Assembly: GCF_010994755.1 (NCBI RefSeq) | Contig: NZ_WHSB02000004.1 | Coordinates: forward strand, 186,001 to 250,000 | DNA from: Shinella lacus | GTDB taxonomy: Bacteria; Pseudomonadota; Alphaproteobacteria; Rhizobiales; Rhizobiaceae | DNA: 64,000 bases | Direction of reading: 5' to 3' | Part shown: positions 4,409 through 17,974 of the stretch, one piece after another | How positions within the stretch are numbered: position 1 is the first letter of the stretch | Layout: every line of letters starts with the position of its first letter | Program-made: the position numbers and the translations under genes | Notes under the pieces: generated by a model | What the model saw: the letters and a program-made list of their open reading frames with translations, nothing else | Database searches by the model: none | What the model was told of the DNA's origin: nothing

Positions 4409-5455
4409 TCAGTCGCGGCTCGCCGTTTTTGTACCCGACTGACCGTTCAGCCAGTTGTGCCAATCGCTCTCGCTGCCGGCAAAGACGTTGAGGTCGATCT
4501 TCCCCGTTACGCCGTGCGACAGGCCGGAACCGGAATACTGCCAGAACATCCAGCGGCGGTTCGGGTAGCGCTTCGACGGGTGCGCGGCAACCGAGCGCAG
4601 CCAGAACGGATGGTTCTTGAGTTCACCCGAAAGGTTGTCCTCGTAAAAATCCGGCGCCGTATAGATGATCGGCCGCTTGCCATAATGGCGTTCCAGCATA
4701 TCGGAGAAGACCTGGATCTTCTCGACATATTGCGCGCGGGTGAGACGCCGCTTGCAGCTCGATTCGCCGTTATATTCCGCGTCGATCACCGGCGGCAGCG
4801 CATCCGGATCCTTCGGAACGTTGCGGATGAACCATTCGGCCTGCGAGCTCGCGACGCGGCACCAGTAAAAGAAGTGGTACGCGCCGCGCCGGATGCCAGC
4901 TTCCTTGGCCCTGCGCCAGTTCTTCTGGAACATCGGGTCGAGATGGTCGCCGCCGTCGGTCGCCTTGATGAAGGCGAAGTTGGCGCCCTGCGTGCGCAGC
5001 TTCATCCAGTCGATATCGCCCTGCCAGCGCGACACGTCGACGCCGTGCACCTGGTAATGCCGCGGCGCGCGCTTGCCGAAATTGATCGGATGCGCATCGC
5101 GGAACTGCTGGCTGTAGATGCGCGACCGTTTTTTCGAGCGACCTTCTGAGGGCGTCTCGACGGCCGTCAGCGCCTCTTCCGGCCGTTCAGAGGGAATTGC
5201 CGATTGTTTGGTGACGCTTTCGAAAACGTGGGAATCCGCACCCGGCCCTGCCCAGGCGAGCATTTCGGCACCTTCCGCCGTCACCTTGCTTTCGCCGACC
5301 GCAACTTCCGGAACGGGATTGCTGCCCTTGGAAACGGAGCTCGTGATTTCCGCCGACGGCTTGATCGACAGCGCCGCCGTGGGATTCGAGCTCGACGCAC
5401 AGCCGGCCATCGAGGCACAGCCGAGGAGGATCGCTGAAAGGATCGAAAGACGCAT
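4409..5455 (-). CDS. Glycoside hydrolase family 25 lysozyme, lipoprotein
   Basis: The product is 348 residues from the ATG at 5455; a GTG at 5467 adds four residues. A lipoprotein signal (LLGCASMAGCASS) is followed by about 100 residues of low-complexity linker and then the GH25 barrel. The barrel shows DVSRWQGDIDW near its start, the catalytic region PPVIDAEYNGE, and near the end QYSGSG and DLNVF. GH25 enzymes are muramidases cutting the MurNAc-GlcNAc bond. A lipid-anchored form suggests cell wall remodelling. The nearby L,D-transpeptidase also acts on peptidoglycan but is not in the same operon. Confidence 0.9.
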   Translation of the reverse strand: MRLSILSAILLGCASMAGCASSSNPTAALSIKPSAEITSSVSKGSNPVPEVAVGESKVTAEGAEMLAWAGPGADSHVFESVTKQSAIPSERPEEALTAVETPSEGRSKKRSRIYSQQFRDAHPINFGKRAPRHYQVHGVDVSRWQGDIDWMKLRTQGANFAFIKATDGGDHLDPMFQKNWRRAKEAGIRRGAYHFFYWCRVASSQAEWFIRNVPKDPDALPPVIDAEYNGESSCKRRLTRAQYVEKIQVFSDMLERHYGKRPIIYTAPDFYEDNLSGELKNHPFWLRSVAAHPSKRYPNRRWMFWQYSGSGLSHGVTGKIDLNVFAGSESDWHNWLNGQSGTKTASRD

Positions 5456-5577
5456 TGGCACTCGCACGCAAAACTAACCGAAGGCCCGCCCTTTCGACAC
5501 AGGGACGGAATTACTAACGGAAGATTACCGCGAAATGTTAAATGCGAGGTTTACGGAGGACTCGACATTTCAGGTAC

Positions 5578-6165
5578 TTAGCCCTGGGAGCTGTCACGAT
5601 CCTTGACGACGCCCTTCACGAAAGCGTGTCCACGCGGCGAAAGCCGATAGCCGACGGCAAGGCTCTCCGTCAGCCCCAACTCCTTGAGCTGGCGTATCTT
5701 TCGCTTGAGCGCCAGTTTCTCCACGCCGAGCCGCTCAGCCATCTCCGCCGCCGTCCGGCCGTCCTTTTCCGCAATCATGGAGAGCACCGAACCGGTCCAT
5801 GGCTGGTCGCGGTCGAGCCTTTCCAGCCGGGCTTTCAGTGCCGCCATATCGTCAGCGTCAAGCGTATCGTTTTCGCGCAGGTTTTCCCGCGGGTCCGCGC
5901 CCGCGACATGGAAGGCGATGCGGTAGAGATCGCCCGCCGGCCGAAGGTCGCGCTCGAGCGCCTCCCGCGACGCATAGCCCGCCGCACGGATATCGGCCTC
6001 GGAAAACGCCGCCAGGTCCACCGGCTCGACGCTGTCGATGGCAAGCACGCCGGCCGCGGTGCGAAGCGTGCCGCCGGCCCTGACCGTCGGCTTCGTCCAG
6101 CGGCGAAAGGCGAGTGTCACCTCACCCCGCCCGATCCTCTCCAGCACCGCCGCCTTGAACAGCAT
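5578..6165 (-). CDS. ASCH-like domain protein with C-terminal winged helix
   Basis: This 195-residue protein has two parts. Residues 1-75 (LFKAAVLERIGRGEVTLAFR, RWTKPTVRAGGTLRT) look like an ASCH/PUA-like domain, a fold that binds RNA or small heterocycles. Residues 125-190 (WTGSVLSMIAEKDGRTAAEMAERLG...LKELGLTESL) form a winged helix. It begins 15 bases after the stop of the urocanase-like gene and is the last gene of the presumed ergothioneine operon, so it may have a regulatory or ligand-binding role there. The role is inferred from position only. Confidence 0.65.
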   Translation of the reverse strand: MLFKAAVLERIGRGEVTLAFRRWTKPTVRAGGTLRTAAGVLAIDSVEPVDLAAFSEADIRAAGYASREALERDLRPAGDLYRIAFHVAGADPRENLRENDTLDADDMAALKARLERLDRDQPWTGSVLSMIAEKDGRTAAEMAERLGVEKLALKRKIRQLKELGLTESLAVGYRLSPRGHAFVKGVVKDRDSSQG

Positions 6166-6180
6166 CGCACCCTTCCGGGT

Positions 6181-7842
6181 TTACCCAACCCTGACGTAGC
6201 CGATGCTCTTCTTTTCGATCTCGTCGAGCGACTCGTCATAACCGGCATCGGCGTAGCGGATCACACCGAGCGAGGTGTCGTTCGTCAAGGCATGGTCGAG
6301 CCGTTCCGCGCCCGCTTCCGTGCCATCCGCGACCAGCGTCACGCCGCAGCTCGTCATGTAGCCCGCATAACCACCGCCGCCGGAATGGATGACGACGAGG
6401 TCGGCCATCGAGGAGGTGAGCAGCATGGCATCGAGCAGCGGCCAGTCGGCAATGGCATCCGACCCATCCTTCATGCGCTCCGTCATGATGTTCGGATGCG
6501 CCATGGCCCCGGCATCGAGATGGTCACGCGAAAAAGCGATCGGCCCCTTGAGTTCACCCGCCGCGACCAGCTTGTTGACCGCCAGTGCAAGCTCCGTGCG
6601 CTCGCCGTGACCGAGCCAGGCAATGCGCGCCGGCAACCCCTCGAAGGGCACGTTTTCGCGGGCAAGCCGGATCCAGTTGGTGACGATCCGGTTGTCCGGA
6701 AACATCTGCAAGACAAGATCATCGATGCGCGCGATATCGCTTTCCTCGCCGGACAGCGCCATCCAGCGGAACGGCCCGATGGCGCGCGCAAACAGCGGCC
6801 GCAGATAGGCTTCGGTGAAAATCGGAATGTCGAAGGCATTGGCAACGCCGCCTTCCCGCGCCTGCGTGCGGATGAGGTTGCCATTGTCGAAGACTTCCGA
6901 GCCTTGCTTCTGGAACTCCAGCATCGCCGAGACGTGCTCGACGATCGAGGCCCGGCTTGCCGCCATCAGCTGCCCCTGCCCGTCATCGCGCAGCCCCTTC
7001 ACCTGGTCGAGGCTCATGCCCTTCGGCACATAGCCGTAGACGAGATCATGCGCCGAGGTCTGGTCGGTGACGATATCCGGCACGATGCCGCGCCGCGCGA
7101 TCTCCGGGTAGATTTCCGCAGCATTGCCGACGAGGCCGATCGAGGTCGCGCGTTTGTCCTTCACCGCCTCGTCGATCATCGCCAGCGCCGTGTCGAGATC
7201 CGGCGCCACATGTTCGAGATAGCCGACCGCCTTGCGCGCCGCCGCGCGCGCCGGATCGATATCGACGCAAAGGATGGCCGCCCCCGCCATGCGGCCGGCC
7301 AGCGGTTGCGCGCCGCCCATGCCGCCGAGGCCGGCGGTGAGGATGAATCGGCCGGCAAGGCTGCCGCCAAACCGCTTTTCCGCGATGCGCATAAAGACTT
7401 CATAGGTGCCCTGGATGACGCCCTGGCTGCCGATATATTGCCAGGCCCCGGCCGTCAGCCCGCCCCAGCAGATCAGCCCCTTGCGCTGAAGTTCATAGAA
7501 CACCTCGGCCTTGGCCCATTGCCCGACGATGTTGCAGTTCGCCATGATGACGAGCGGCGCCTTCGCATGGGTCCTGAGCAGCCCGACCGGCTTGCCGGAC
7601 TGGATGACCAGCGTCTGGTCCTCGTCCATGTCAGTCAGCGCCTTGACGATCGCTCGATGCGCCGCCCAGTTGCGCGCCGCCTTGCCGAGGGCCGCGTAGA
7701 CTATGAGATTGTCCGGATCCTCACCAACCGACAGCACGTTTTCAAGCAACCGCAACAACCCCTCCTGCCGCCAGCCCTTGGCGCGCAGCACGTCGCCGCT
7801 GGGGATCGGATAGTTCGGATGGCGCGGATTGGGTTTGGGCAT
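6181..7842 (-). CDS. Urocanate hydratase family protein, probable thiourocanate hydratase
   Basis: The 553-residue protein has the normal urocanase length and the NAD-binding GLGGMGGAQP at 171-180. Positions that are constant in true HutU are changed here. The ARICW cysteine (Cys410 of the Pseudomonas enzyme, from memory) is Ala408. PNRETE is PNIMTE (450-455), and HHGGGVGMG is HSGGGGYAG (486-494). There is no hutI, hutF, hutG or hutC nearby, whereas a desulfurase and a hydantoinase are. I therefore infer hydration of 2-thiourocanate to 3-(5-oxo-2-thioxoimidazolidin-4-yl)propionate. Plain urocanate hydratase remains the alternative. Confidence 0.8.
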   Translation of the reverse strand: MPKPNPRHPNYPIPSGDVLRAKGWRQEGLLRLLENVLSVGEDPDNLIVYAALGKAARNWAAHRAIVKALTDMDEDQTLVIQSGKPVGLLRTHAKAPLVIMANCNIVGQWAKAEVFYELQRKGLICWGGLTAGAWQYIGSQGVIQGTYEVFMRIAEKRFGGSLAGRFILTAGLGGMGGAQPLAGRMAGAAILCVDIDPARAAARKAVGYLEHVAPDLDTALAMIDEAVKDKRATSIGLVGNAAEIYPEIARRGIVPDIVTDQTSAHDLVYGYVPKGMSLDQVKGLRDDGQGQLMAASRASIVEHVSAMLEFQKQGSEVFDNGNLIRTQAREGGVANAFDIPIFTEAYLRPLFARAIGPFRWMALSGEESDIARIDDLVLQMFPDNRIVTNWIRLARENVPFEGLPARIAWLGHGERTELALAVNKLVAAGELKGPIAFSRDHLDAGAMAHPNIMTERMKDGSDAIADWPLLDAMLLTSSMADLVVIHSGGGGYAGYMTSCGVTLVADGTEAGAERLDHALTNDTSLGVIRYADAGYDESLDEIEKKSIGYVRVG

Positions 7843-7862
7843 GGTTGTCTCCTCAAGTCTCT

Positions 7863-8951
7863 TCAGGCCAGCGCGTAGCTCACCAGATCGATCCCCATCG
7901 CCTTCTCCACAGACGGATACACCGTCGGATCGAGCACGCTGGAGGCGAGCGGGATGATGGTCTTGGGCACATGCAGCACGAAGAGCTTCATGCCGACTTC
8001 GAGCTGGCCGACGCTGAGCGGCTCGCCTTCCGGCGAAAGCGTGGTGATGACATCCGGGAAGGTCGCGAGGCGTTTGCCCGCGGCCGATTCCACCGCCATG
8101 TATTCGTTCATGACATGCAGCACCGTCGCGCTGTCGCCCTTGCCGAGCGTCACGGTGCCGATGTCGAAGGCTTCCTTGGTATAGACCACCGACTTGTCGG
8201 TGATCGTGCCTTCGGAAAGGATCGCGCCGCCCGTCGTCTTGACGATCGCGTCGATGATCGCCGAGCCGCCCTTGCCCTCCGCCGCGAGGATCGCCTCACC
8301 GAGGGTCAGCGCCAGTGAAATGCCGCCGAGCGCCGCATTCTTGCGCACATAGGAGGCCCGCAGCGGATTGCGGCAGGAGGCGATGAAGCCGCCGGACATG
8401 TCGGAGGCGGTTCGCAGGATGGGCGAGACCTTTGCGGTCGCGCCGCGCACGACGAGCTCGATATAGCGGTTCTCGTCGCGGTTTCCGCCGACGGCCGTCT
8501 GGATCATCTGTTCGGGGGAGCCGGCCATGCCGATCGACCCCATGTCGCCGGTCGGGTGCGCGCGCATGTCACCCACGGCATCCAGCACCTTGGTGCCGAG
8601 GATGGCCGACGGCAGCCAGCCATTCAGCGTCGACGACTTGCCGTTCTGGCCGACCATCAGCGCGGCGACCTTCTCGCCAAGCGCCTCCTGCAAAAGCTCG
8701 ACGGCCTTCACGTAATCGACGCCGCGCATCTCCCACGGTGTGGTCGAGGCCGGGGCGCCAATGGCCGCCGCCGTCGCCACCCAGTCGTCGTCGGAAAGCT
8801 CGTCGATGGAGACCAGTTCCGGCTTGCCGATCGACACTGCGGCATAGCCGAGCATGCGGCCATGATCCGCCCAGCCGCCACCGCCGGCGGCATAGACCGA
8901 GCCGCCCTTGACCGCCGCCTCGACGTCTTTTTCCTTTAGAATCCGGCCCAT
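7863..8951 (-). CDS. DUF917 / S-methyl-thiohydantoin desulfurase family protein
   Basis: The 362-residue protein matches the DUF917 family, now named S-Me-THD, with a glycine-rich N-terminus (GGSVYAAGGGGWADHG), NPLRASYV and a late VPKTIIPLASS. The family is linked to desulfuration of thiohydantoins. In this operon it fits removal of the C2 sulfur from 3-(5-oxo-2-thioxoimidazolidin-4-yl)propionate to give hydantoin-5-propionate. Its start overlaps the stop of the M20 hydrolase (ATGA at 8948-8953), and the urocanase-like gene starts 20 bases after it. The reaction is inferred from the family name and gene order. Confidence 0.8.
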   Translation of the reverse strand: MGRILKEKDVEAAVKGGSVYAAGGGGWADHGRMLGYAAVSIGKPELVSIDELSDDDWVATAAAIGAPASTTPWEMRGVDYVKAVELLQEALGEKVAALMVGQNGKSSTLNGWLPSAILGTKVLDAVGDMRAHPTGDMGSIGMAGSPEQMIQTAVGGNRDENRYIELVVRGATAKVSPILRTASDMSGGFIASCRNPLRASYVRKNAALGGISLALTLGEAILAAEGKGGSAIIDAIVKTTGGAILSEGTITDKSVVYTKEAFDIGTVTLGKGDSATVLHVMNEYMAVESAAGKRLATFPDVITTLSPEGEPLSVGQLEVGMKLFVLHVPKTIIPLASSVLDPTVYPSVEKAMGIDLVSYALA

Positions 8952-10222
8952 CAGACGTCCTCCTGACTCAAGATCTTATCCAGCTGAATCACTGCGTTAA
9001 AAAGCACCGCCGCGCCGAGCGCGATGTCGTCCGTTTCGGCGAACTCTTCGGGCGCATGGCTGCGACCGCCAAGGCAGGGCACGAAGATCATCGCCGAGCG
9101 CGTCACCCGCGCCATCCAGGCCGTGTCGTGACCGGCACCGGACGCCATGCGGCGATGCGTGGCGCCCGCAACCTCGCAAGCGGCGTCCAGCACGTCGAGC
9201 AGCATCGGATCGCCGGGCGTCGGTGGGTTGTCGGAGATGCGGCGCGGCGCTTCGATGACGGTGCCCGTCTCGCGCCCCAGTTGCTCGGCCATCAGGTCCA
9301 GCGATGCCGCGAAGAGGTCCATCGCGGCGCGATCCTCCGCCCGCGCATCGATCAGCAGGCGCACGCGGGAGGGAACGACATTGGCGGCATTCGGCTCGAT
9401 GGAGAACTCGCCGACCGTCGCCGTGAAATGGCTTGGCCCGTCGGAGAGCGATTTCGCCAGCGCCTCGATGCCCGTCACCAGCCGCGCGGCCGCCGCGAGC
9501 GCATCGGCACGATTGCCCATCGGCGTGGTGCCGGCATGGTCCGCGCGGCCCTGCACGATGATCTCGATGCGCGTAATGCCGGCGATTGCCGTCACCACGC
9601 CGATATCGCGCTTTTCGGTTTCGAGCACCGGGCCTTGCTCGATATGCAGTTCTAGAAAGGCCGCGATATCCTTGCGCGCTTCGACGGCAATGCGCGCCGG
9701 ATCGCCGCCGGCATCGCGAATGCCCTGTTCCAACGTCAGCCCGTTGCTTTCGCGCGAAAACCACTCCTCCGGCAACACGCCGGCCATGCCGCGGCTGCCG
9801 ATGCAGGACACGCCGAAGATCGACACTTCCTCGGCGAGGAAATCGACGACCTCCAGGTCGTGGTCGAGCTCGATGCCCTGGTCGGCGAGCGACCGGGCCA
9901 CTTCCAGCGCCACTGCCACGCCGGCAATGCCGTCATAACGCCCGCCATCCGGCACCGTGTCGGAATGGGAACCGAGCATGATCGTGCCGAGGCCGGGCTT
10001 TTTGCCCGCGCGCCGAGCGACGAGATTGCCCGCGGCATCCACGCGTGTCTCAAGCCCCGCGGCCTGAAATTTTTCGAGAAGAAAATCCCGCCCCGCCGGG
10101 AACAGAGCGGTAAAGGCACGCCGCGTATAGGGCCGGCCGGGCTCGGTGAGCCGGGCGAGGCCGTCGATCACATCCTGTATGCGGGCGGGATCGACCGGCA
10201 GATTGGTTTTTGGCGCGGCCAT
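8951..10222 (-). CDS. M20 amidohydrolase: N-carbamoyl-L-amino acid hydrolase / allantoate amidohydrolase family
   Basis: From the ATG at 10222 the protein has 423 residues; this start overlaps the hydantoinase stop as ATGA. Metal-binding motifs of the family are present: GSHSDTVPDGGRYDG, FLAEEVSIFG, LELHIEQGPVLE and the late GAGHDTAWMA histidine. These dinuclear metalloenzymes split N-carbamoyl groups from amino acids to give CO2 and ammonia. After a hydantoinase acting on hydantoin-5-propionate, the expected substrate is N-carbamoyl-L-glutamate, yielding glutamate. Purine (allantoate) breakdown is less likely because no other purine gene is present. Confidence 0.85.
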   Translation of the reverse strand: MAAPKTNLPVDPARIQDVIDGLARLTEPGRPYTRRAFTALFPAGRDFLLEKFQAAGLETRVDAAGNLVARRAGKKPGLGTIMLGSHSDTVPDGGRYDGIAGVAVALEVARSLADQGIELDHDLEVVDFLAEEVSIFGVSCIGSRGMAGVLPEEWFSRESNGLTLEQGIRDAGGDPARIAVEARKDIAAFLELHIEQGPVLETEKRDIGVVTAIAGITRIEIIVQGRADHAGTTPMGNRADALAAAARLVTGIEALAKSLSDGPSHFTATVGEFSIEPNAANVVPSRVRLLIDARAEDRAAMDLFAASLDLMAEQLGRETGTVIEAPRRISDNPPTPGDPMLLDVLDAACEVAGATHRRMASGAGHDTAWMARVTRSAMIFVPCLGGRSHAPEEFAETDDIALGAAVLFNAVIQLDKILSQEDV

Positions 10223-11598
10223 CAGGCGCGGCCCGAAACGAGCGTCGGCAGCGGGCGCACGAAGGCGCCGGTGCCGGGCTCGGCCAGCACCTTGGTGCCG
10301 TCGAAGGCGAGCTTGCCGCGCAGATAGGTGGCGGAAACGCGCCACGGCAGGCGAATGCCGTTATAGGGCGACCAGCCGACGACGTTGTGGCCGCTGGCGA
10401 CCGAGTCGTAGGTGTAGGGCTCGGGCGTCAGCACGGTGATGTCGGCATCCTTGCCGGCCTCCAACGCACCCTTGACGTGGTCAAGCCGGAAATGGCGGGC
10501 CGGGTTCAGCGTCATCAGCTCGGCGGCACGGGTCAGCGGAATGCCGCGCTCCAGCGCACCCTTGACGAAGAGCGGCACCATAACCTCCAGCCCCGGCACG
10601 CCCGACGCGTTCGCCAGCATGTCCGGATTGGTCTTGCGGTCCTCCGACCAGCTGACATGGTCGGTGGAAACCAGCGTGACATTGCCTTCGGCGACATGGC
10701 GCCAAAGCTTTTCCACCTCGACGCGCGGGCGGATCGGCGGGTTGATCTTCGCCTTGCCGCCGAGGCGGGCGACGTCGTTCTCCTCGTCGAGCGTCAGGTA
10801 GTGGATGCAGCATTCGATGGTGGCGCGGTGCCCTTGCGCGCGGTAGGCGGCGGCGATCTCGTAGCCGCGGCCGAGCGAGCAATGCACCACATGCGCCGGG
10901 CAGCCGGTTTCGGCGCCGGTCTCGTAGATCTGGTTGGAGGCCAGCAGCTCCGTCAGCGGCGGGCGCGACAGGCCGTGGGCGCGGTAGTCGGTGATGCCCA
11001 GGGCTTTGACCTTGGCGATCGCCGCACGCACCGCCTCGTCATCCTCGTTGTGCACGCCGGCCGTCAGCCCCGTCGGAGCGATGGCGCGGAAGCAGTCTTC
11101 CAGGAGGGCGGCGGGAATGCGTGGAAACCGCTTCGGGTCGGTGCCGAAGGTGGAGAACTTGAACGCGGCGACGCCGGCCTCGACCATCTCGCTGATACGC
11201 GCCGGCCCCTCCTCCGGATCGACCGTGCCATAGAGCGCGAAATCGACGCGGGCCTGCGGCGACGCATGGTCGACCTTGATTTTCACGGCCTCGGCTGAGC
11301 AGACGAGATTGCCCTCGTCATAGGGCATGTCGACGATGGTCGTCACACCACCGGCCGCCGCCGAGCGCGTCGACCAGAGGAAATCCTCCTGGTTCTTCTG
11401 CGACAGCGAATGCACCTGCGCGTCGATGGCGCCAGGCAGGATCAGCGCGCCGGAAAGGTCGTGCCGTTCCTTGGCTGCCGGCATCGCGCCCTGCCCGACA
11501 TGCACCACCTTGCCATCACGGACGGCGACATGGCCGCCCTCGACGACGCGGTTCGCGAGCACCACGGTGCCTTTCAGAACGAGATCGAAATCGGCCAT
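10222..11598 (-). CDS. Hydantoinase/dihydropyrimidinase-family cyclic amidohydrolase
   Basis: The 458-residue protein belongs to the hydantoinase-allantoinase-dihydroorotase family. The carboxylated lysine position (AAFKFSTFG, Lys147), the histidines of GVHNEDDE and AHVVHCS, and the STDHVSW aspartate region are all visible. The first metal motif, normally D-x-H-x-H, reads DAQVHS, with Gln61 in place of the first histidine. Proposed role: ring opening of hydantoin-5-propionate to N-carbamoyl-glutamate. It lies 12 bases after the ergothionase-like gene and overlaps the M20 gene. An allantoinase role cannot be excluded, but the context speaks against it. Confidence 0.8.
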   Translation of the reverse strand: MADFDLVLKGTVVLANRVVEGGHVAVRDGKVVHVGQGAMPAAKERHDLSGALILPGAIDAQVHSLSQKNQEDFLWSTRSAAAGGVTTIVDMPYDEGNLVCSAEAVKIKVDHASPQARVDFALYGTVDPEEGPARISEMVEAGVAAFKFSTFGTDPKRFPRIPAALLEDCFRAIAPTGLTAGVHNEDDEAVRAAIAKVKALGITDYRAHGLSRPPLTELLASNQIYETGAETGCPAHVVHCSLGRGYEIAAAYRAQGHRATIECCIHYLTLDEENDVARLGGKAKINPPIRPRVEVEKLWRHVAEGNVTLVSTDHVSWSEDRKTNPDMLANASGVPGLEVMVPLFVKGALERGIPLTRAAELMTLNPARHFRLDHVKGALEAGKDADITVLTPEPYTYDSVASGHNVVGWSPYNGIRLPWRVSATYLRGKLAFDGTKVLAEPGTGAFVRPLPTLVSGRA

Positions 11599-11610
11599 CT
11601 GGTTCTCCCG

Positions 11611-13149
11611 TCAGAATTTAAGGGCGAAGAAAGTGTCGATGCCCGCCATCGGCGCCGCCTCGACGAAGGCGGCGAGCGCCTCGGGGCTCGCCAGGTCGCG
11701 GTCGAGCGCCTCGATCTCGGCGGAAAGCGGCCGGTCCTTGCGATAGAACGGGCTCACCGCCCGCGTGCGGGCATAGGCAACGGCAACCACGCCCTCGACA
11801 TTGTCGCCGGCAAGGTCGATTGCCTGTGCGGACAGCATGGCTTCGAGGGCGGCGAGCTGGCGGAGGTCGCGCACCTGGCTTTCCATGCGCTCGACGATGA
11901 GAGGCAGGAAGGTCGCCTCCTCTTCGAGGCCGCCGGCAACCACGATCGACTGCGCCGAGATCGGCACCGCCAGCGACTGGATGCGCATGTAGAGTTCGAC
12001 GGCGAGTTTCAGCAGCGGGCCGAACCCCGTCGCCGCCTCGCCGGGCGCCACGAGATTGACCGGCAGGTTGCGTCGCACCCCGTTCGCCAGCAGCACACAG
12101 CGGTTCAGCACGTTGCGGGCGAGATGGGCAAAGCCCGTCTGCGCCGCCTCGACATAGAGCGTGGTCGAGAGCGGCAGCGAACCGCCGGAGGCCATGACGT
12201 GGTTGTCCATCACCACCGGATTGTCGTCCGACTGCGCGGTCGCCTCGACGATGCGCTCGGCGGCCAGCAGCAGCGTATCGAGGCAGGCGCCGAACACCTG
12301 GGCGGTCATGCGCAGGCTGAGCGGATCGTGGATGGCGGACGGTTTCGGCCAATGGCCGGAAGAAGCCTGCGCCTCGAACCAGCAGCCGGCCAGCGCCTCG
12401 CCATGGGCGGAGAGCCGGGCGGCCACCCGCCAAGGATCGGCCGAGGCGCCGAGCGCCAGCGAAGAGAGCAGGCCCGTCACCATGAGATTGCGGATGGCCT
12501 TTGCCGCCTCGCGCACCACATTGGCGGCGGCGGCATGCGAGATGGCATTGACGCTGAGCGCCGCCAGCGCATCGCGCGGCTGCATGCGATAGGGGGCGAG
12601 GCCGGCGCGCTTCAGCGCGTCCGCGGCCGGCAGGCGCTCGCCGCCATACCAGGCCTCGCCGTCGCCGGTTATCACCGAGGCGATCTGCCCCATCAGGCCG
12701 ATATCGGCGCAGCCCATCGAGCCATGCCGGCGCACGACGGGCACGACATCCTTTTCGAGCAGCGCGAGGAAGGCGTCGATCAGCTCCGGGCTGCAGCCGG
12801 AATAGCCGCCGAGCGCGGTGTTGACGCGGATCGCCATCGCCTTGCGCACGATCGGCAAGGTGAAGGGCTCGCCGGTGCCGAAATGGTGGGCCTTCACCAG
12901 GTTGTTGTTGAACTCCACCAGGTCGTCGGCCGTCCAGAGCTTGTCCTTCATCGAGCCGACGCCCGTATTGGCGCCGTAGATCGGCAGGCCCGTGGCAAGA
13001 CGATCCGTGATGACGAGGCGCGAGGCGCCGACGCGGCCCATGCCGATCTCGCAGGCGACCGGCCGTCGCGTGGCAGCGCCGATCGCCTCCAGCGTTGCGA
13101 AGTCGAGCGGTTGACCGGTGAGATAGAGCGTATCGGCGGAAGCGAGCAT
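11611..13149 (-). CDS. HutH/PAL-superfamily lyase lacking the MIO triad, probable ergothionase
   Basis: The 512-residue protein aligns end to end with aromatic amino acid lyases. It has the catalytic-tyrosine loop IYGANTGVG (Tyr58), HDPLSLRMTAQVFGACLD and a DDNPVV segment. The Ala-Ser-Gly that cyclises to the MIO electrophile in HutH is replaced by Cys147-Ala148-Asp149 (GSMGCADIG). Ergothionases eliminate trimethylamine, a good leaving group, from ergothioneine and are known not to need MIO (from memory), so the loss fits. The product would be 2-thiourocanate. It is the first gene of the operon, reading away from the tandem-HTH regulator. Confidence 0.8.
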   Translation of the reverse strand: MLASADTLYLTGQPLDFATLEAIGAATRRPVACEIGMGRVGASRLVITDRLATGLPIYGANTGVGSMKDKLWTADDLVEFNNNLVKAHHFGTGEPFTLPIVRKAMAIRVNTALGGYSGCSPELIDAFLALLEKDVVPVVRRHGSMGCADIGLMGQIASVITGDGEAWYGGERLPAADALKRAGLAPYRMQPRDALAALSVNAISHAAAANVVREAAKAIRNLMVTGLLSSLALGASADPWRVAARLSAHGEALAGCWFEAQASSGHWPKPSAIHDPLSLRMTAQVFGACLDTLLLAAERIVEATAQSDDNPVVMDNHVMASGGSLPLSTTLYVEAAQTGFAHLARNVLNRCVLLANGVRRNLPVNLVAPGEAATGFGPLLKLAVELYMRIQSLAVPISAQSIVVAGGLEEEATFLPLIVERMESQVRDLRQLAALEAMLSAQAIDLAGDNVEGVVAVAYARTRAVSPFYRKDRPLSAEIEALDRDLASPEALAAFVEAAPMAGIDTFFALKF

Positions 13150-13173
13150 GTTTGGAAGCCTGTTTTTCCCTAA

Positions 13174-13217
13174 GCAATTCCAGGAAAAGTGTGAAGCGGT
13201 TTTCCGTCCGGAATTGC
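13174..13217. repeat. 44-bp palindromic dispersed repeat, copy 2 (inverted)
   Basis: The reverse complement matches the copy at 2849-2892 nearly throughout, with the same 44-base length and GCAATTCC/GGAATTGC ends. It lies in the 180-base divergent region between the ergothionase-like gene and the regulator, close to where a promoter is expected. Confidence 0.8.
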
Positions 13218-13240
13218 GTAGAAACTAGAGATGGATGTTA

Positions 13241-13256
13241 TGCGCATCGTGGCGCA
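13241..13256. promoter_or_regulatory. Candidate operator between the ergothionase operon and its regulator
   Basis: TGCGC-ATCGTG-GCGCA is an inverted repeat with five-base arms, midway in the divergent region 13150-13329. It is a plausible LysR-type site, but the spacing is one base off the usual T-N11-A frame, so the call is weak. Confidence 0.3.
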
Positions 13257-13329
13257 AACAGATATCCCAAAATCCGTACGGTCCATGTTATAAACCGAAC
13301 GGAAGACGGCAGCGCGAAGGACCGCACCC

Positions 13330-14487
13330 TTGGATCTATCCACCCTCTGCCTTGTGCACAGCATTCTTGAAGAACGCGGCATCCGCAGGGCGGCCGCCGC
13401 GATGGGCCGCCCGGCCTCCAGCGCCAGCGCGGCGCTGCGGCGCGTCGAGGCCAGCCTGTCGGTGCCGCTGGTGCGCCGTGACGGGCAGGCGCTGGTGCCG
13501 ACGCTGGAGGCCGAAACCCGCCTGCCGCGCTTTGCAGAGATCGCCGGATCCGCCGCCGCCCTTGCCGCGCTCGGCGAAGGATCACGAGACGCCATCTCGC
13601 TCTCCGCCCTCGCCCGTTTCGCCACCGTTGCCAGAACCGGCAGCATCAACGGCGCCGCCAAAAGCCTCGGCCTCGGCCAGCCGCAACTCACCCGCCAGCT
13701 CAGCCATCTGGAAGAGGCGCTTGGCTGCAAATTGCTGGAGCGTTCGGCGACGGGGATCAGCTGCACGCCGGCCGGCCTCGAGGCGCTGGCGCTTGCCGAG
13801 CGCATCGGCGCGGCCTGGGAGGCGCTGTCGGCCGCCTCGGCGGAACGGTTTCGCCGCAGCGCCGCCACCTGGCGGCTCGGCACGATCATCCCCTTCGGCC
13901 ATGAAAGCGAGATCGCCGCCATGCTCGCCCGCCTGACGGTCGAATGGCGGGCGGCGCGGCCGCGCCAGCCGCTCTTCCTCTCCTCCACCACGGCGGATGA
14001 TCTTATCTCCGGCCTGAAGAACCGCCGTTTCGACCTGATCCTGCTCGACACCGACCACTACCCCGCCGAATTCGAGGGCCAACTGATCGGCCGCTCGCAA
14101 CTGGCGCTCGCCGGCCCGCGCTCACTGGACGAGGCGGAACGGCAGGATTTCGCAGCCCTGCTGCGGCGCTATCCCATTGCCGTGCCGAGCCCGCGGAGCG
14201 GCCTGCGGCAGATGACGGACCGCTTCCTCGAAGCGACGCTGACCCCGGCGGAACGCTCGCGCCTGACGCTGGTCGAAGTTGATTCGATCCCGGTCATCAT
14301 CAACCTCGTGCTCCGCCACGGCCATCTCTCCGTGCTGCCGGAACATTCCGTCGCCAACATCAACCCGCCGCCGACGCTGCTGCCGCTCTACCCGGCCTAC
14401 CAGCAATCGCTGAGCCTCGTCTGGCCGCGCGATGCGCTCTCCCGGCAGGCGGCCGAGACGATGCTGCCTTTGCTCGCGAAGACTTAG
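13330..14487 (+). CDS. LysR-family regulator with two tandem HTH domains
   Basis: The 385-residue protein (TTG start, preceded by GAAGGAC) is about 80 residues longer than a normal LysR protein. Residues 3-58 form one LysR-type HTH (LVHSILEERGIRRAAAAMG...). Residues 92-150 form a second, more canonical one (LARFATVARTGSINGAAKSLG...LTRQLSHLEEALG). The effector-binding domain then follows from about 165. It is divergent from the ergothionase operon and presumably controls it, perhaps binding ergothioneine or thiourocanate. The stop overlaps the convergent GlxA-type gene by four bases. Confidence 0.85.
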   Translation: MDLSTLCLVHSILEERGIRRAAAAMGRPASSASAALRRVEASLSVPLVRRDGQALVPTLEAETRLPRFAEIAGSAAALAALGEGSRDAISLSALARFATVARTGSINGAAKSLGLGQPQLTRQLSHLEEALGCKLLERSATGISCTPAGLEALALAERIGAAWEALSAASAERFRRSAATWRLGTIIPFGHESEIAAMLARLTVEWRAARPRQPLFLSSTTADDLISGLKNRRFDLILLDTDHYPAEFEGQLIGRSQLALAGPRSLDEAERQDFAALLRRYPIAVPSPRSGLRQMTDRFLEATLTPAERSRLTLVEVDSIPVIINLVLRHGHLSVLPEHSVANINPPPTLLPLYPAYQQSLSLVWPRDALSRQAAETMLPLLAKT

Positions 14488-15458
14488 CCCTTCGCCCCAG
14501 CCCTCAGCCGCCGCCGGGTCTCCGTCGGGCTTTCGTGATAGTGCGCCCGGTAGCTGCGCGAGAAGGCGGAGGAGGAGTTGAAACCGGTCAGCGCGGCGAT
14601 GTCGGCGAATTCCGATTTGGTCTCGATCACCTTGCGCCGGGCCGCGTTGAGCCTGAGCGCCAGATAATGCTGGTGCGGCGCCACGCCCATCGATTCCTGG
14701 AACAGGTCCTGCAAATGCCGCGCGCTGATGCCGACGCGTTTGGCAAGCCGCGTCAGCGTCAGCGGCGCGTCCACCGTCTCCTCCATCAGCCGCACCGCCT
14801 GGCTGACGCGCTGGTCGGCGACACGCATATTGCCCAGCGCCGGCACCTGAAGCAGGCCGCCGGTGCGCTCGTGCTCGTAGATGAAGAGCCGCGACACTTC
14901 GAGCGCCAGCGAATAGCCCTGCCGGCGGCGGATGATCTCCAGCATCAAATCCAGCGTTGGCAATGAGCCGCCCGTCGTGATGCGCTTGCCATCGATCACA
15001 TAACGCTCGCGCACCACGCCGATCTGCGGAAAGGCGGAGGCGAATTCCTCCATGTCCTCCCAGTGGATCGTCACCGAATGGCCGTCGAGCAGGCTCGCCT
15101 GCGCCAGCAGCCAGCTGCCCGATTCGATGCCGGCCATCATGCTGCGATAACGCGCCGTCTGCGAAAGCTGGCGCCGCAACAGAGGCGTCGCACTCATCTG
15201 CCATTGATAGGAGGAAAGCACGAAAAGCGGCTGGGTCTCCTTCTCCGGCCGGAACAGGCCATCGACCGGCACGGGAATGCGGCTGCGCGTCTCGATCGGC
15301 TGGCCATCCGGCGAGAAGATGCGCCAGCAGTAGAGGTCCTGCCCGGAGATGCGGTTTGCCGCGCGCAAGGGTTCGATGACCGAGGCGACGAGGATGAGGT
15401 TCGTCTCGGGCAGGACGAGGATATCGATGTCGAGTGTCTCGGAGGATGGATCCAGCAT
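14484..15458 (-). CDS. GlxA/AraC-family regulator, CdhR-like
   Basis: From the ATG at 15458 the protein has 324 residues. The N-terminal DJ-1/PfpI-like domain starts LDIDILVLPETNLILVASVIEPLRAANR. The C-terminal AraC HTH pair (LTLTRLAKRVGISARHLQDLFQESMG and ADIAALTGFNSSSAFSRSYRAHY) is complete. A start at 15572 would run into the start of the divergent BKACE gene, so I use the internal ATG. Divergence from carnitine catabolic genes and the domain build both match Pseudomonas CdhR, the carnitine-responsive activator, so carnitine-dependent control of 15573-22111 is likely. Confidence 0.85.
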   Translation of the reverse strand: MLDPSSETLDIDILVLPETNLILVASVIEPLRAANRISGQDLYCWRIFSPDGQPIETRSRIPVPVDGLFRPEKETQPLFVLSSYQWQMSATPLLRRQLSQTARYRSMMAGIESGSWLLAQASLLDGHSVTIHWEDMEEFASAFPQIGVVRERYVIDGKRITTGGSLPTLDLMLEIIRRRQGYSLALEVSRLFIYEHERTGGLLQVPALGNMRVADQRVSQAVRLMEETVDAPLTLTRLAKRVGISARHLQDLFQESMGVAPHQHYLALRLNAARRKVIETKSEFADIAALTGFNSSSAFSRSYRAHYHESPTETRRRLRAGAKG

Positions 15459-15572
15459 GGCGAAAGCATGCGTGCTCACCTCTCGAATTGTCAAGGATAG
15501 ATCCGAAAAGTGAAAGCACTGCGCCTCCTCTTGGCTCGTAATGTCCCCCACAAGAATTCTGGGAGAGACCAC

Positions 15573-16484
15573 ATGCCCTTAGCCATGAACCGTGATGTCT
15601 TCATCACCTGCGCCGTCACCGGCTCCGGCGACACCGCCGGCAAATCGCCCCACGTACCGCGCTCGCCCAAGCAGATCGCCGAATCGGCGATCGACGCCGC
15701 CAAGGCCGGCGCCGCCGTCGTGCATTGCCACGTCCGCGATCCGGAGACCGGCGCGCCGAGCCGCCGCAACGATCTCTATCGCGAAGTGACCGAGCGCATC
15801 CGCGATGCCGAGGTGGACGTGGTGCTGAACCTCACCGCCGGAATGGGCGGCGACATGATCTTCGGCAACACCGAACAGCCGCTGCCGCTGAACCCCAACG
15901 GCACCGACATGGTCGGCGCCACCGAGCGTGTTTCCCACGTCGCCGAATGCCTGCCGGAAATCTGTACGCTCGATTGCGGCACGATGAACTTTTCGCTCGG
16001 CGACTATGTGATGACCAACACGCCGTCCATGCTGCGCGCCATGGGCAAGATGATGACGGACCTCGGCGTCCGCCCGGAAATCGAGGCCTTCGACACCGGT
16101 CATCTCTGGTTCGCCAAGCAGCTCGTCGAGGAAGGCATCATCGAGGACCCGGTGCTCATCCAGCTCTGCATGGGCATTCCGTGGGGCGCGCCCGACGACC
16201 TCAACACCTTCATGGCGATGGTCAACAACGTACCGTCGTCCTGGACCTTCTCCGCCTTCTCGATCGGCCGCAACGCCATGGCCTATCCGGCCGCGGCCGT
16301 GCTCGCCGGCGGCAATGTCCGCGTCGGTCTTGAAGACAACCTCTATGTCGGCAAGGGCCAGCTCGCCACCAATGCGCAGCTCGTCGAAAAGGCCGTCAAC
16401 GTCGTCGAAAGCATGGGCGCACGCATCATCGGCCCGGCCGAAGTGCGCGAAAAGCTGAAACTCCAGAAGCGGGCACCGAAATGA
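15573..16484 (+). CDS. Beta-keto acid cleavage enzyme (BKACE, DUF849), probable 3-dehydrocarnitine cleavage
   Basis: The 303-residue TIM-barrel enzyme shows the metal-binding HCHVRDPETG near residue 50 and the family motifs NLTAGMGGD and LDCGTMNF. BKACE enzymes condense a beta-keto acid with acetyl-CoA and split it into acetoacetate and a new acyl-CoA. Next to carnitine dehydrogenase the substrate is most likely 3-dehydrocarnitine, giving betainyl-CoA. GGGAGAGACCAC precedes the ATG at 15573. The stop overlaps the dehydrogenase start by four bases. Confidence 0.9.
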   Translation: MPLAMNRDVFITCAVTGSGDTAGKSPHVPRSPKQIAESAIDAAKAGAAVVHCHVRDPETGAPSRRNDLYREVTERIRDAEVDVVLNLTAGMGGDMIFGNTEQPLPLNPNGTDMVGATERVSHVAECLPEICTLDCGTMNFSLGDYVMTNTPSMLRAMGKMMTDLGVRPEIEAFDTGHLWFAKQLVEEGIIEDPVLIQLCMGIPWGAPDDLNTFMAMVNNVPSSWTFSAFSIGRNAMAYPAAAVLAGGNVRVGLEDNLYVGKGQLATNAQLVEKAVNVVESMGARIIGPAEVREKLKLQKRAPK

Positions 16485-17974
16485 GCACGATCAACAAGGC
16501 GGCCTGCGTCGGCGGCGGTGTCATCGGCGGGGCCTGGGTCGCGCGTTTCGCGCTCGCCGGCATCGACGTCAATATTTTCGATCCGCATCCGGAAGCCGAG
16601 CGCATCATCGGCGAAGTGATGGCGAACGCCGAGCGTGCCTATGGCATGCTCACCATGGCGCCGCTGCCGCCAAAGGGTAAAATCACCTTCTGCAAAAGCT
16701 TGGAAGAAGCCGTCCAAGACGCTGACTGGATTCAGGAAAGCGTGCCCGAGCGGCTGGAAATGAAGCGCGGCGTCCTCACCCAGATCGACGCGGCCGCAAA
16801 GCCCGAAGCCCTGATCGGCTCCTCCACCTCCGGCCTCATGCCGACCGATCTGCAGCGCGACATGAAGCACCCCGAACGCCTGTTCGTGGCGCATCCCTAC
16901 AACCCCGTCTACCTGCTGCCGCTGGCCGAGCTCGTCGGTGGCGAAAAGACCAGCAAGCAGACGCTCGAAGACGCCAAGGCGAAACTGGCGCCGATCGGCA
17001 TGAAGGGCGTGATCATCAAGAAGGAGATCGAGGCCTTCGTCGGCGATCGTCTGCTCGAAGCCGTCTGGCGCGAGGGCCTCTGGCTCATCAAGGACGACAT
17101 CTGCGACACCGAGACGCTCGACGACGTGATCCGCTATTCGTTCGGCATCCGCTGGGCGCAGATGGGCATGTTCGAGACCTACCGCATCGCCGGCGGCGAG
17201 GCCGGCATGCGCCACTTCCTCGCCCAGTTCGGCCCCTGCCTCTCCTGGCCCTGGACGAAGCTCACCGACGTCGTCGATCTCAACGACGAGTTGGTGGAAA
17301 AGATCGCCCAGCAGTCGGACGACCAGTCCGGCGCCCGCGGCATCCGCGACCTGGAGCGCATCCGCGACCAGAACCTCGTCGGCATCATGCATGCGCTGAA
17401 GGCCGGCGACGACGGCAAGGGCTGGGGCGCAGGCAAGCTGCTCGCCGAGTTCGAGGAACATCTCTGGTCGAAGGCCGGCAAGGCGAAGGTCGAGGTCTCG
17501 GCCGCCGAACCGCTACGCCTTGTCGACACCAAGGTCAACGCCGCCTGGGTCGATTACAACGGCCATATGACCGAGCACCGCTATCTCCAGCTCTTCGGCG
17601 ATACGATGGATGCGCTGCTCCGGCTGATCGGCGTCGACTTCGCCTATGTTGAGGCCGGCCACAGCTACTACACGGTGGAAACCCACATCCGCCATCTCGG
17701 CGAAGGCAAGCTCGGCCAGGCGCTCTACACCACGCTCCAGCTTCTCTCCTCCGACAACAAGCGGCTGCACTTCTTCACCCGCATCCACGACGCCGCGACC
17801 GGCGACGTTATCGCGACGGCCGAGCAGATGGCGCTGCACGTCGACAGCAAAGCAGGCAAGAGCGTCGATGCGCCTGCGGACGTGCTGGCGAAGGTTGCGG
17901 AGATTGCGCAAGCCCATGCCAAGCTGCCGGCGCCGGACGGTGTCGGGCGGCATGTCGGGCAGAAGCGCGCCTGA
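16481..17974 (+). CDS. lcdH: L-carnitine dehydrogenase fused to betainyl-CoA thioesterase
   Basis: The 497-residue protein has a 3-hydroxyacyl-CoA dehydrogenase-like half with the NAD motif GGGVIG at 11-16 and the AHPYNPVYLLPLAELVGG substrate region. A hotdog thioesterase domain runs from about 343 to 480 (VDYNGHMTEHRYLQLFGD). This fusion is the rhizobial form of carnitine dehydrogenase (EC 1.1.1.108); the pseudomonad enzyme lacks the tail. It oxidises carnitine to 3-dehydrocarnitine with NAD, and the tail probably releases glycine betaine from the betainyl-CoA made by the adjoining BKACE. The start overlaps the BKACE stop (ATGA). Confidence 0.92.
   Translation: MSTINKAACVGGGVIGGAWVARFALAGIDVNIFDPHPEAERIIGEVMANAERAYGMLTMAPLPPKGKITFCKSLEEAVQDADWIQESVPERLEMKRGVLTQIDAAAKPEALIGSSTSGLMPTDLQRDMKHPERLFVAHPYNPVYLLPLAELVGGEKTSKQTLEDAKAKLAPIGMKGVIIKKEIEAFVGDRLLEAVWREGLWLIKDDICDTETLDDVIRYSFGIRWAQMGMFETYRIAGGEAGMRHFLAQFGPCLSWPWTKLTDVVDLNDELVEKIAQQSDDQSGARGIRDLERIRDQNLVGIMHALKAGDDGKGWGAGKLLAEFEEHLWSKAGKAKVEVSAAEPLRLVDTKVNAAWVDYNGHMTEHRYLQLFGDTMDALLRLIGVDFAYVEAGHSYYTVETHIRHLGEGKLGQALYTTLQLLSSDNKRLHFFTRIHDAATGDVIATAEQMALHVDSKAGKSVDAPADVLAKVAEIAQAHAKLPAPDGVGRHVGQKRA

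Follow-up and report, generated by a model that had tools for sequence, protein, structure and literature searches.

Genes for the breakdown of ergothioneine, a mushroom antioxidant, can pass as histidine-degradation genes and may bear only generic names in public records. For five adjoining enzyme genes in a 64,000-nucleotide stretch of Shinella lacus (assembly GCF_010994755.1, contig NZ_WHSB02000004.1, positions 186,001 to 250,000; hereafter "the window"), this raises the question of which of the two compounds they serve. We consider it highly probable that the locus is a compact ergothioneine-utilisation operon, with which this soil bacterium should degrade ergothioneine to glutamate through reactions predicted from sequence. 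This assignment is built on features that we observed, namely gene content, gene order, family membership, a missing 4-methylideneimidazole-5-one (MIO) motif, phylogeny, and co-occurrence.

A five-step bacterial pathway of ergothioneine catabolism was reportedly described by Beliaeva, Leisinger, and Seebeck in 2021, in a study cited by PMC9732360. Since this route is already in print, the operon counts as a further case of a known pathway, to which it adds; less usual are the clade of its lyase and the tandem helix-turn-helix (HTH) regulator beside it. The window holds the same five enzyme classes, of which those for steps 2–5 match NCBIfam equivalogs named for these steps, and it differs by its divergent lyase and the tandem-HTH LysR protein, in a comparison made at the level of enzyme classes and models. 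In the proposed series of reactions, the lyase would need no MIO cofactor to split trimethylamine off ergothioneine, leaving thiourocanate, which the urocanase-like enzyme would hydrate. The DUF917 enzyme would then desulfurise the thiohydantoin to hydantoin-5-propionate. Ring opening by the hydantoinase would produce N-carbamoyl-glutamate, from which the M20 enzyme would release glutamate. Ergothioneine itself would probably be imported by a transporter encoded outside the operon.

Operon layout and the enzymes of steps 2 to 5

As judged from the list of open reading frames (ORFs) and their translations, the five enzyme ORFs are open, lie on the minus strand, and abut one another across 6181–13149, in the transcript order histidine ammonia-lyase (HAL)-fold lyase, hydantoinase, M20 carbamoylase, DUF917 protein, and urocanase-like protein (Table 1). 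TGATG overlaps join the hydantoinase to the M20 gene and the M20 to the DUF917 gene, and the remaining gaps measure 12 bp (lyase/hydantoinase) and 20 bp (desulfurase/hydratase), which confirms the tight packing described in an earlier note on this DNA. For the M20 gene, a likelier start than the one given in the ORF list (10345) is the ATG in the overlap with the stop codon of the hydantoinase gene. From this spacing we infer that the five genes share a single transcript; a simple sigma-70 scan of 5400–13400 returned no site. The earlier note had let the operon run from 5578 to 13149, of which the part occupied by the five enzymes stands. The remainder, 5578–6165, is a sixth ORF that starts 15 bp downstream of the hydratase gene, reaches 28.5 bits for HTH_20 (cut-off 27), and was matched in 7 of 16 related cluster loci of the Shinella group and in 5 of the 80 named loci introduced below, every one of them Shinella; its small HTH product probably lies outside the ergothioneine pathway. 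Over the 16 Shinella-group loci L026–L041, the gap between the desulfurase and hydratase matches ranges from 36 to 574 bp, next to the 20 bp between the window genes.

Table 1. Features in and around the predicted ergothioneine operon, in window coordinates.
Feature	Position	Strand	Basis
MIO-free HAL-fold lyase, predicted ergothionase (step 1)	11611–13149	-	PF00221, residues, trees
ErtD-type hydantoin-5-propionate amidohydrolase (step 4)	10222–11598	-	NF058538
ErtE-type N-carbamoyl-L-glutamate amidohydrolase, M20 (step 5)	8951–10222	-	NF058540
Thiohydantoin desulfurase, DUF917/S-Me-THD family (step 3)	7863–8951	-	NF058529
Thiourocanate hydratase, urocanase-like (step 2)	6181–7842	-	NF058530, tree
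Small HTH protein	5578–6165	-	Weak HTH_20 match
Divergent LysR protein with two tandem DNA-binding domains, candidate operon regulator	13330–14487	+	HTH_1 twice, predicted model
Lyase/LysR intergenic region, presumed promoter region	13150–13329	none	Position only
AraC-type regulator	14484–15572		Adjoins LysR gene
Carnitine-type genes: beta-keto acid cleavage enzyme and 3-hydroxyacyl-CoA dehydrogenase/thioesterase fusion	15510–17974

The four enzymes downstream of the lyase all exceeded the cut-offs of the curated models for their steps. The hydantoinase scored 796 bits against ErtD (NF058538, cut-off 600), the DUF917 protein 603 against thiohydantoin desulfurase (NF058529, cut-off 440), and the M20 protein 592 against ErtE (NF058540, cut-off 520), with a higher score for the latter on a generic Zn-dependent hydrolase model (PRK12893.1-5; 663, cut-off 486). 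The search against thiourocanate hydratase that had been suggested earlier gave 1045 bits for the hydratase (NF058530, cut-off 930). Together with the lyase, placed by residues and phylogeny, this supports the earlier proposal of a gene for every pathway step.

The same scores bear on whether the operon might serve an altered ergothioneine (S-methyl-ergothioneine or ergothioneine sulfonate) and not the unmodified compound. Models for the S-methyl compounds do exist in NCBIfam, and a paper on a sulfonate pathway is cited in PMC13405746 (2026). However, desulfurase (285, cut-off 450) and hydratase (734.5, cut-off 880) both stayed under the S-methyl cut-offs and over the thio cut-offs, a comparison that covers the S-methyl route, as there is no model for the sulfonate. 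We regard an altered substrate as quite unlikely.

A further alternative, in which the genes would be a paralogous set for histidine utilisation with histidine and urocanate as substrates, could invoke that the hydratase also passes the hutU model (TIGR01228; 688, cut-off 375). Yet the more specific NF058530 gave the higher score, and in a tree of 36 rows the 17 cluster hydratases and PDB 7ned were split from 18 HutU rows (100/100). Among 385 genomes of the class, the NF058530 cut-off was passed in five, including that of the window, with 963–1045 bits, and the best score below it was 722. All 21 Shinella-group genomes also carry a match of 666–704 bits, which is presumably HutU; the copy in the window genome is assigned to HutU by its own model.

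An ert-type cluster of Burkholderia arboris (plasmid pla_1, L204) resembles that of the window in that ErtD, ErtE, desulfurase, and hydratase exceed their cut-offs and that an MIO-free lyase is encoded beside the genes for steps 2–5. Unlike in the window, the Burkholderia genes occupy both strands, and the two lyases are 29.5% identical.

The lyase of step 1

The window lyase scored 272 bits against PF00221 and 215 bits against the hutH model TIGR01225, far under the cut-off of 539. Its best curated matches are named histidine ammonia-lyase, and there was no ergothionase model among the NCBIfam matches of the window lyase and the Burkholderia lyase. PMC13405746 (2026) cites the ergothionases of Burkholderia and Treponema denticola, along with other ergothioneine routes, and describes ergothionase as devoid of MIO. 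When we followed the earlier suggestion to search against a characterised ergothionase, the T. denticola enzyme (PDB 6s7j) was the closest solved structure with 187.5 bits, the next being a HAL with 143. Like the window lyase, T. denticola ergothionase (6s7j/6s7q) has the HAL fold, no MIO triad, and a matching tyrosine, two lysines, and a glutamate, but it is 27% identical and belongs to a different clade, and the stretch of the lost triad reads SSIGEGDI instead of GSMGCADIG.

The MIO triad A-S-G occurred in none of 100 cluster lyases, a set that counts ten Shinella genomes twice, as opposed to all 21 HutH proteins of the Shinella group. Lysine was found at position 68 in 98 and at position 381 in 99 of these cluster lyases (window lyase numbering). 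Both lysines are present in T. denticola ergothionase and in none of 21 HutH and nine second HALs. Y58, K68, K381, and E409, which were picked by conservation and not from a structure paper, recur in the lyases of T. denticola and Burkholderia, with Y58 and E409 also found in HutH. A missing triad alone does not suffice to call an ergothionase, as other MIO-free HAL types exist; the absence of A-S-G plus the presence of both lysines would make a helpful test for naming the lyase.

In the lyase tree, 28 cluster lyases fell on one side of a 100/100 branch, and the cluster lyases plus T. denticola ergothionase were opposite all 15 HutH/HAL rows (100/98). Upon addition of the Burkholderia cluster lyase, the corresponding branch was supported at 99/96. 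These trees are unrooted and have long branches, and the cluster lyases form a clade of their own within them. A grouping of lyase and hydratase with true HutH and HutU, named beforehand as the outcome that would speak against ergothioneine, was thus recovered for neither enzyme. Residues and phylogeny, rather than a curated model, support the lyase as a predicted ergothionase.

These data leave the histidine-utilisation alternative with the HAL fold of the lyase and the names of its best curated matches, next to the hutU score. Against it stand the low hutH score, the lack of the MIO triad, and the separation of both enzymes from true HutH and HutU. Besides, hutI and hutG reside elsewhere in the genome. 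Neither these nor hutF or hutC were seen in the operon stretch by ORF list and family searches, in agreement with the earlier note, and a separate hut locus on contig C48 encodes HutU (974 bits, cut-off 375), HutG (392, cut-off 279), HutH (737, cut-off 524), and HutI (465, cut-off 298). This locus shares the lyase and hydratase superfamilies with the operon but differs by these scores and by the presence of the MIO triad. To our knowledge, the desulfurase has no role in histidine breakdown, which likewise counts against this alternative. Taken together, a function in histidine utilisation appears extremely improbable.

With 27–30% identity to their T. denticola and Burkholderia counterparts, the alphaproteobacterial lyases make up a distant clade, which could favour a divergent lyase that mainly uses another trimethylated imidazole, e.g. 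hercynine or selenoneine. However, the Burkholderia cluster encodes a hydratase with 69.7% and a desulfurase with 66.3% identity to the window enzymes, and because of this closeness the lyase product should be thiourocanate; the shared tyrosine, lysines, and glutamate argue in the same direction. Such a shift in substrate therefore seems a slim prospect. Somewhat short of an even chance is what we would give a broader proposal, namely that the alphaproteobacterial lyases constitute a separately evolved, uncharacterised class of MIO-free ergothioneine trimethylamine lyases, and that the operon is under the control of a new type of LysR regulator, which has two complete DNA-binding domains and responds to ergothioneine or thiourocanate.

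Several other lyases deserve mention. In one Shinella-group genome (G009; L029, 8617–10146), the lyase reading frame is interrupted by a stop at residue 251, with the other cluster genes present. The window genome harbours a second HAL-family lyase on contig C24 (L043, 9124–10659; GSVGYLTH, without A-S-G), and this second type was found by score in 12 of 21 Shinella-group genomes, nine of which were inspected. Two MIO-free lyases annotated as hutH (L206, 5992–7467; L207, 5995–7497) carry GSIGAGDL and a lysine at 381, not at 68. They lie in rows with ATP-binding cassette (ABC) transporter genes, two LLM flavin oxidoreductases, and an ornithine cyclodeaminase homologue, plus a glycine betaine binding protein in L206, and possibly act on another betaine. 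At L076 (6017–10806), desulfurase and thiourocanate hydratase genes adjoin an MIO-type lyase (GSVGASGDL), which perhaps acts on a non-methylated thiohistidine.

Distribution of the cluster and its transport genes

Of the 21 Shinella-group genomes, 17 had lyase, desulfurase, and hydratase together, one of them with the lyase interrupted by a stop, and the other four (G002, G006, G017, G018) lacked all three. The lyase type was distinguished from other HALs by score, and a search with a cluster-lyase profile agreed. The window genome had no match to PF10017, which we take to be the family containing EgtD.

A single collection scan with the lyase gave 294 pattern matches and 263 relatives, of which 80 were retained as named loci. 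They comprise Rhizobiaceae genera, unclassified Rhizobiales, Martelella, Devosia, and one record named Marinicella. All five enzyme genes were present within the fetched sequence in 72 of the 80, and because order and strand were identical in each of these 72 loci, the arrangement is not due to chance. As for incomplete loci, L112 and L137 stop at contig ends and L131 stops before the hydratase, and L138, L142, L151, and L154 have the lyase without its four partner genes nearby; in the latter four genomes and in that of the control L134, a hydratase over the cut-off was found elsewhere or nearby (5/5). Martelella alba (L130, 8962–17306) has lyase, importer, desulfurase, and hydratase genes, with no hydantoinase or M20 gene in the fetched stretch. 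On plasmid pAMI4 of Paracoccus aminophilus (L205, 6043–12805), genes for steps 2–5 accompany a 47% identical LysR protein, and no lyase match was found within the 21 kb fetched.

PMC13405746 (2026) reports that a search with the Burkholderia enzyme gave only similarities to histidine, phenylalanine, and tyrosine ammonia-lyases (HAL/PAL/TAL), and concludes that only a few genera possess ergothionase and that it is not widespread in the gut. The 263 relatives from one scan indicate that the lyase is easily overlooked; they concern bacteria of soils and plants rather than those of the gut. One annotated Rhizobium plasmid carries the same five genes under the names "aromatic amino acid ammonia-lyase", "amidohydrolase family protein", "Zn-dependent hydrolase", "DUF917 family protein", and "urocanate hydratase".

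An ABC importer is encoded between lyase and hydantoinase in 5 of the 80 named loci (Martelella, Marinicella sp. W31, Devosia) and in two genomes of the class. The binding protein of one such importer is a glycine-betaine-type OpuAC by Pfam, and these in-operon importers of relatives likely take up ergothioneine. The Shinella operon has no importer genes, and a 68% homologue of the binding protein is encoded on another contig.

The LysR protein and neighbouring genes

Each half of the LysR protein alone exceeded the HTH_1 cut-off of 26.6, with 40.3 and 63.1 bits, and the predicted model (mean pLDDT 87.6, pTM 0.55) has two winged-HTH units, with a long helix after each. Of these two DNA-binding domains, the adjacent LysR protein of the B. 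arboris cluster (296 aa) has a match only to the second. Our literature search found no description of a LysR protein with tandem DNA-binding domains, most subscription papers being outside its reach. At E ≤ 1e-60, the protein was matched in 16 of 17 cluster-bearing Shinella-group genomes (all except G019) and in none of the four cluster-free ones. It was also matched in 56 of the 80 named loci, in five of which the best local match begins after or within the first domain, and its gene is missing from most Rhizobium loci among L133–L158. In Martelella, where the carnitine genes were not found, the LysR gene still adjoins that of the lyase. The LysR protein is the probable regulator of the operon, with ergothioneine or an intermediate as its likely signal.

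Further along lie the gene of an AraC-type regulator and those of a beta-keto acid cleavage enzyme and a dehydrogenase/thioesterase fusion, the latter two presumably linked to carnitine. The cleavage-enzyme gene adjoins the cluster in 50 of the 80 named loci.

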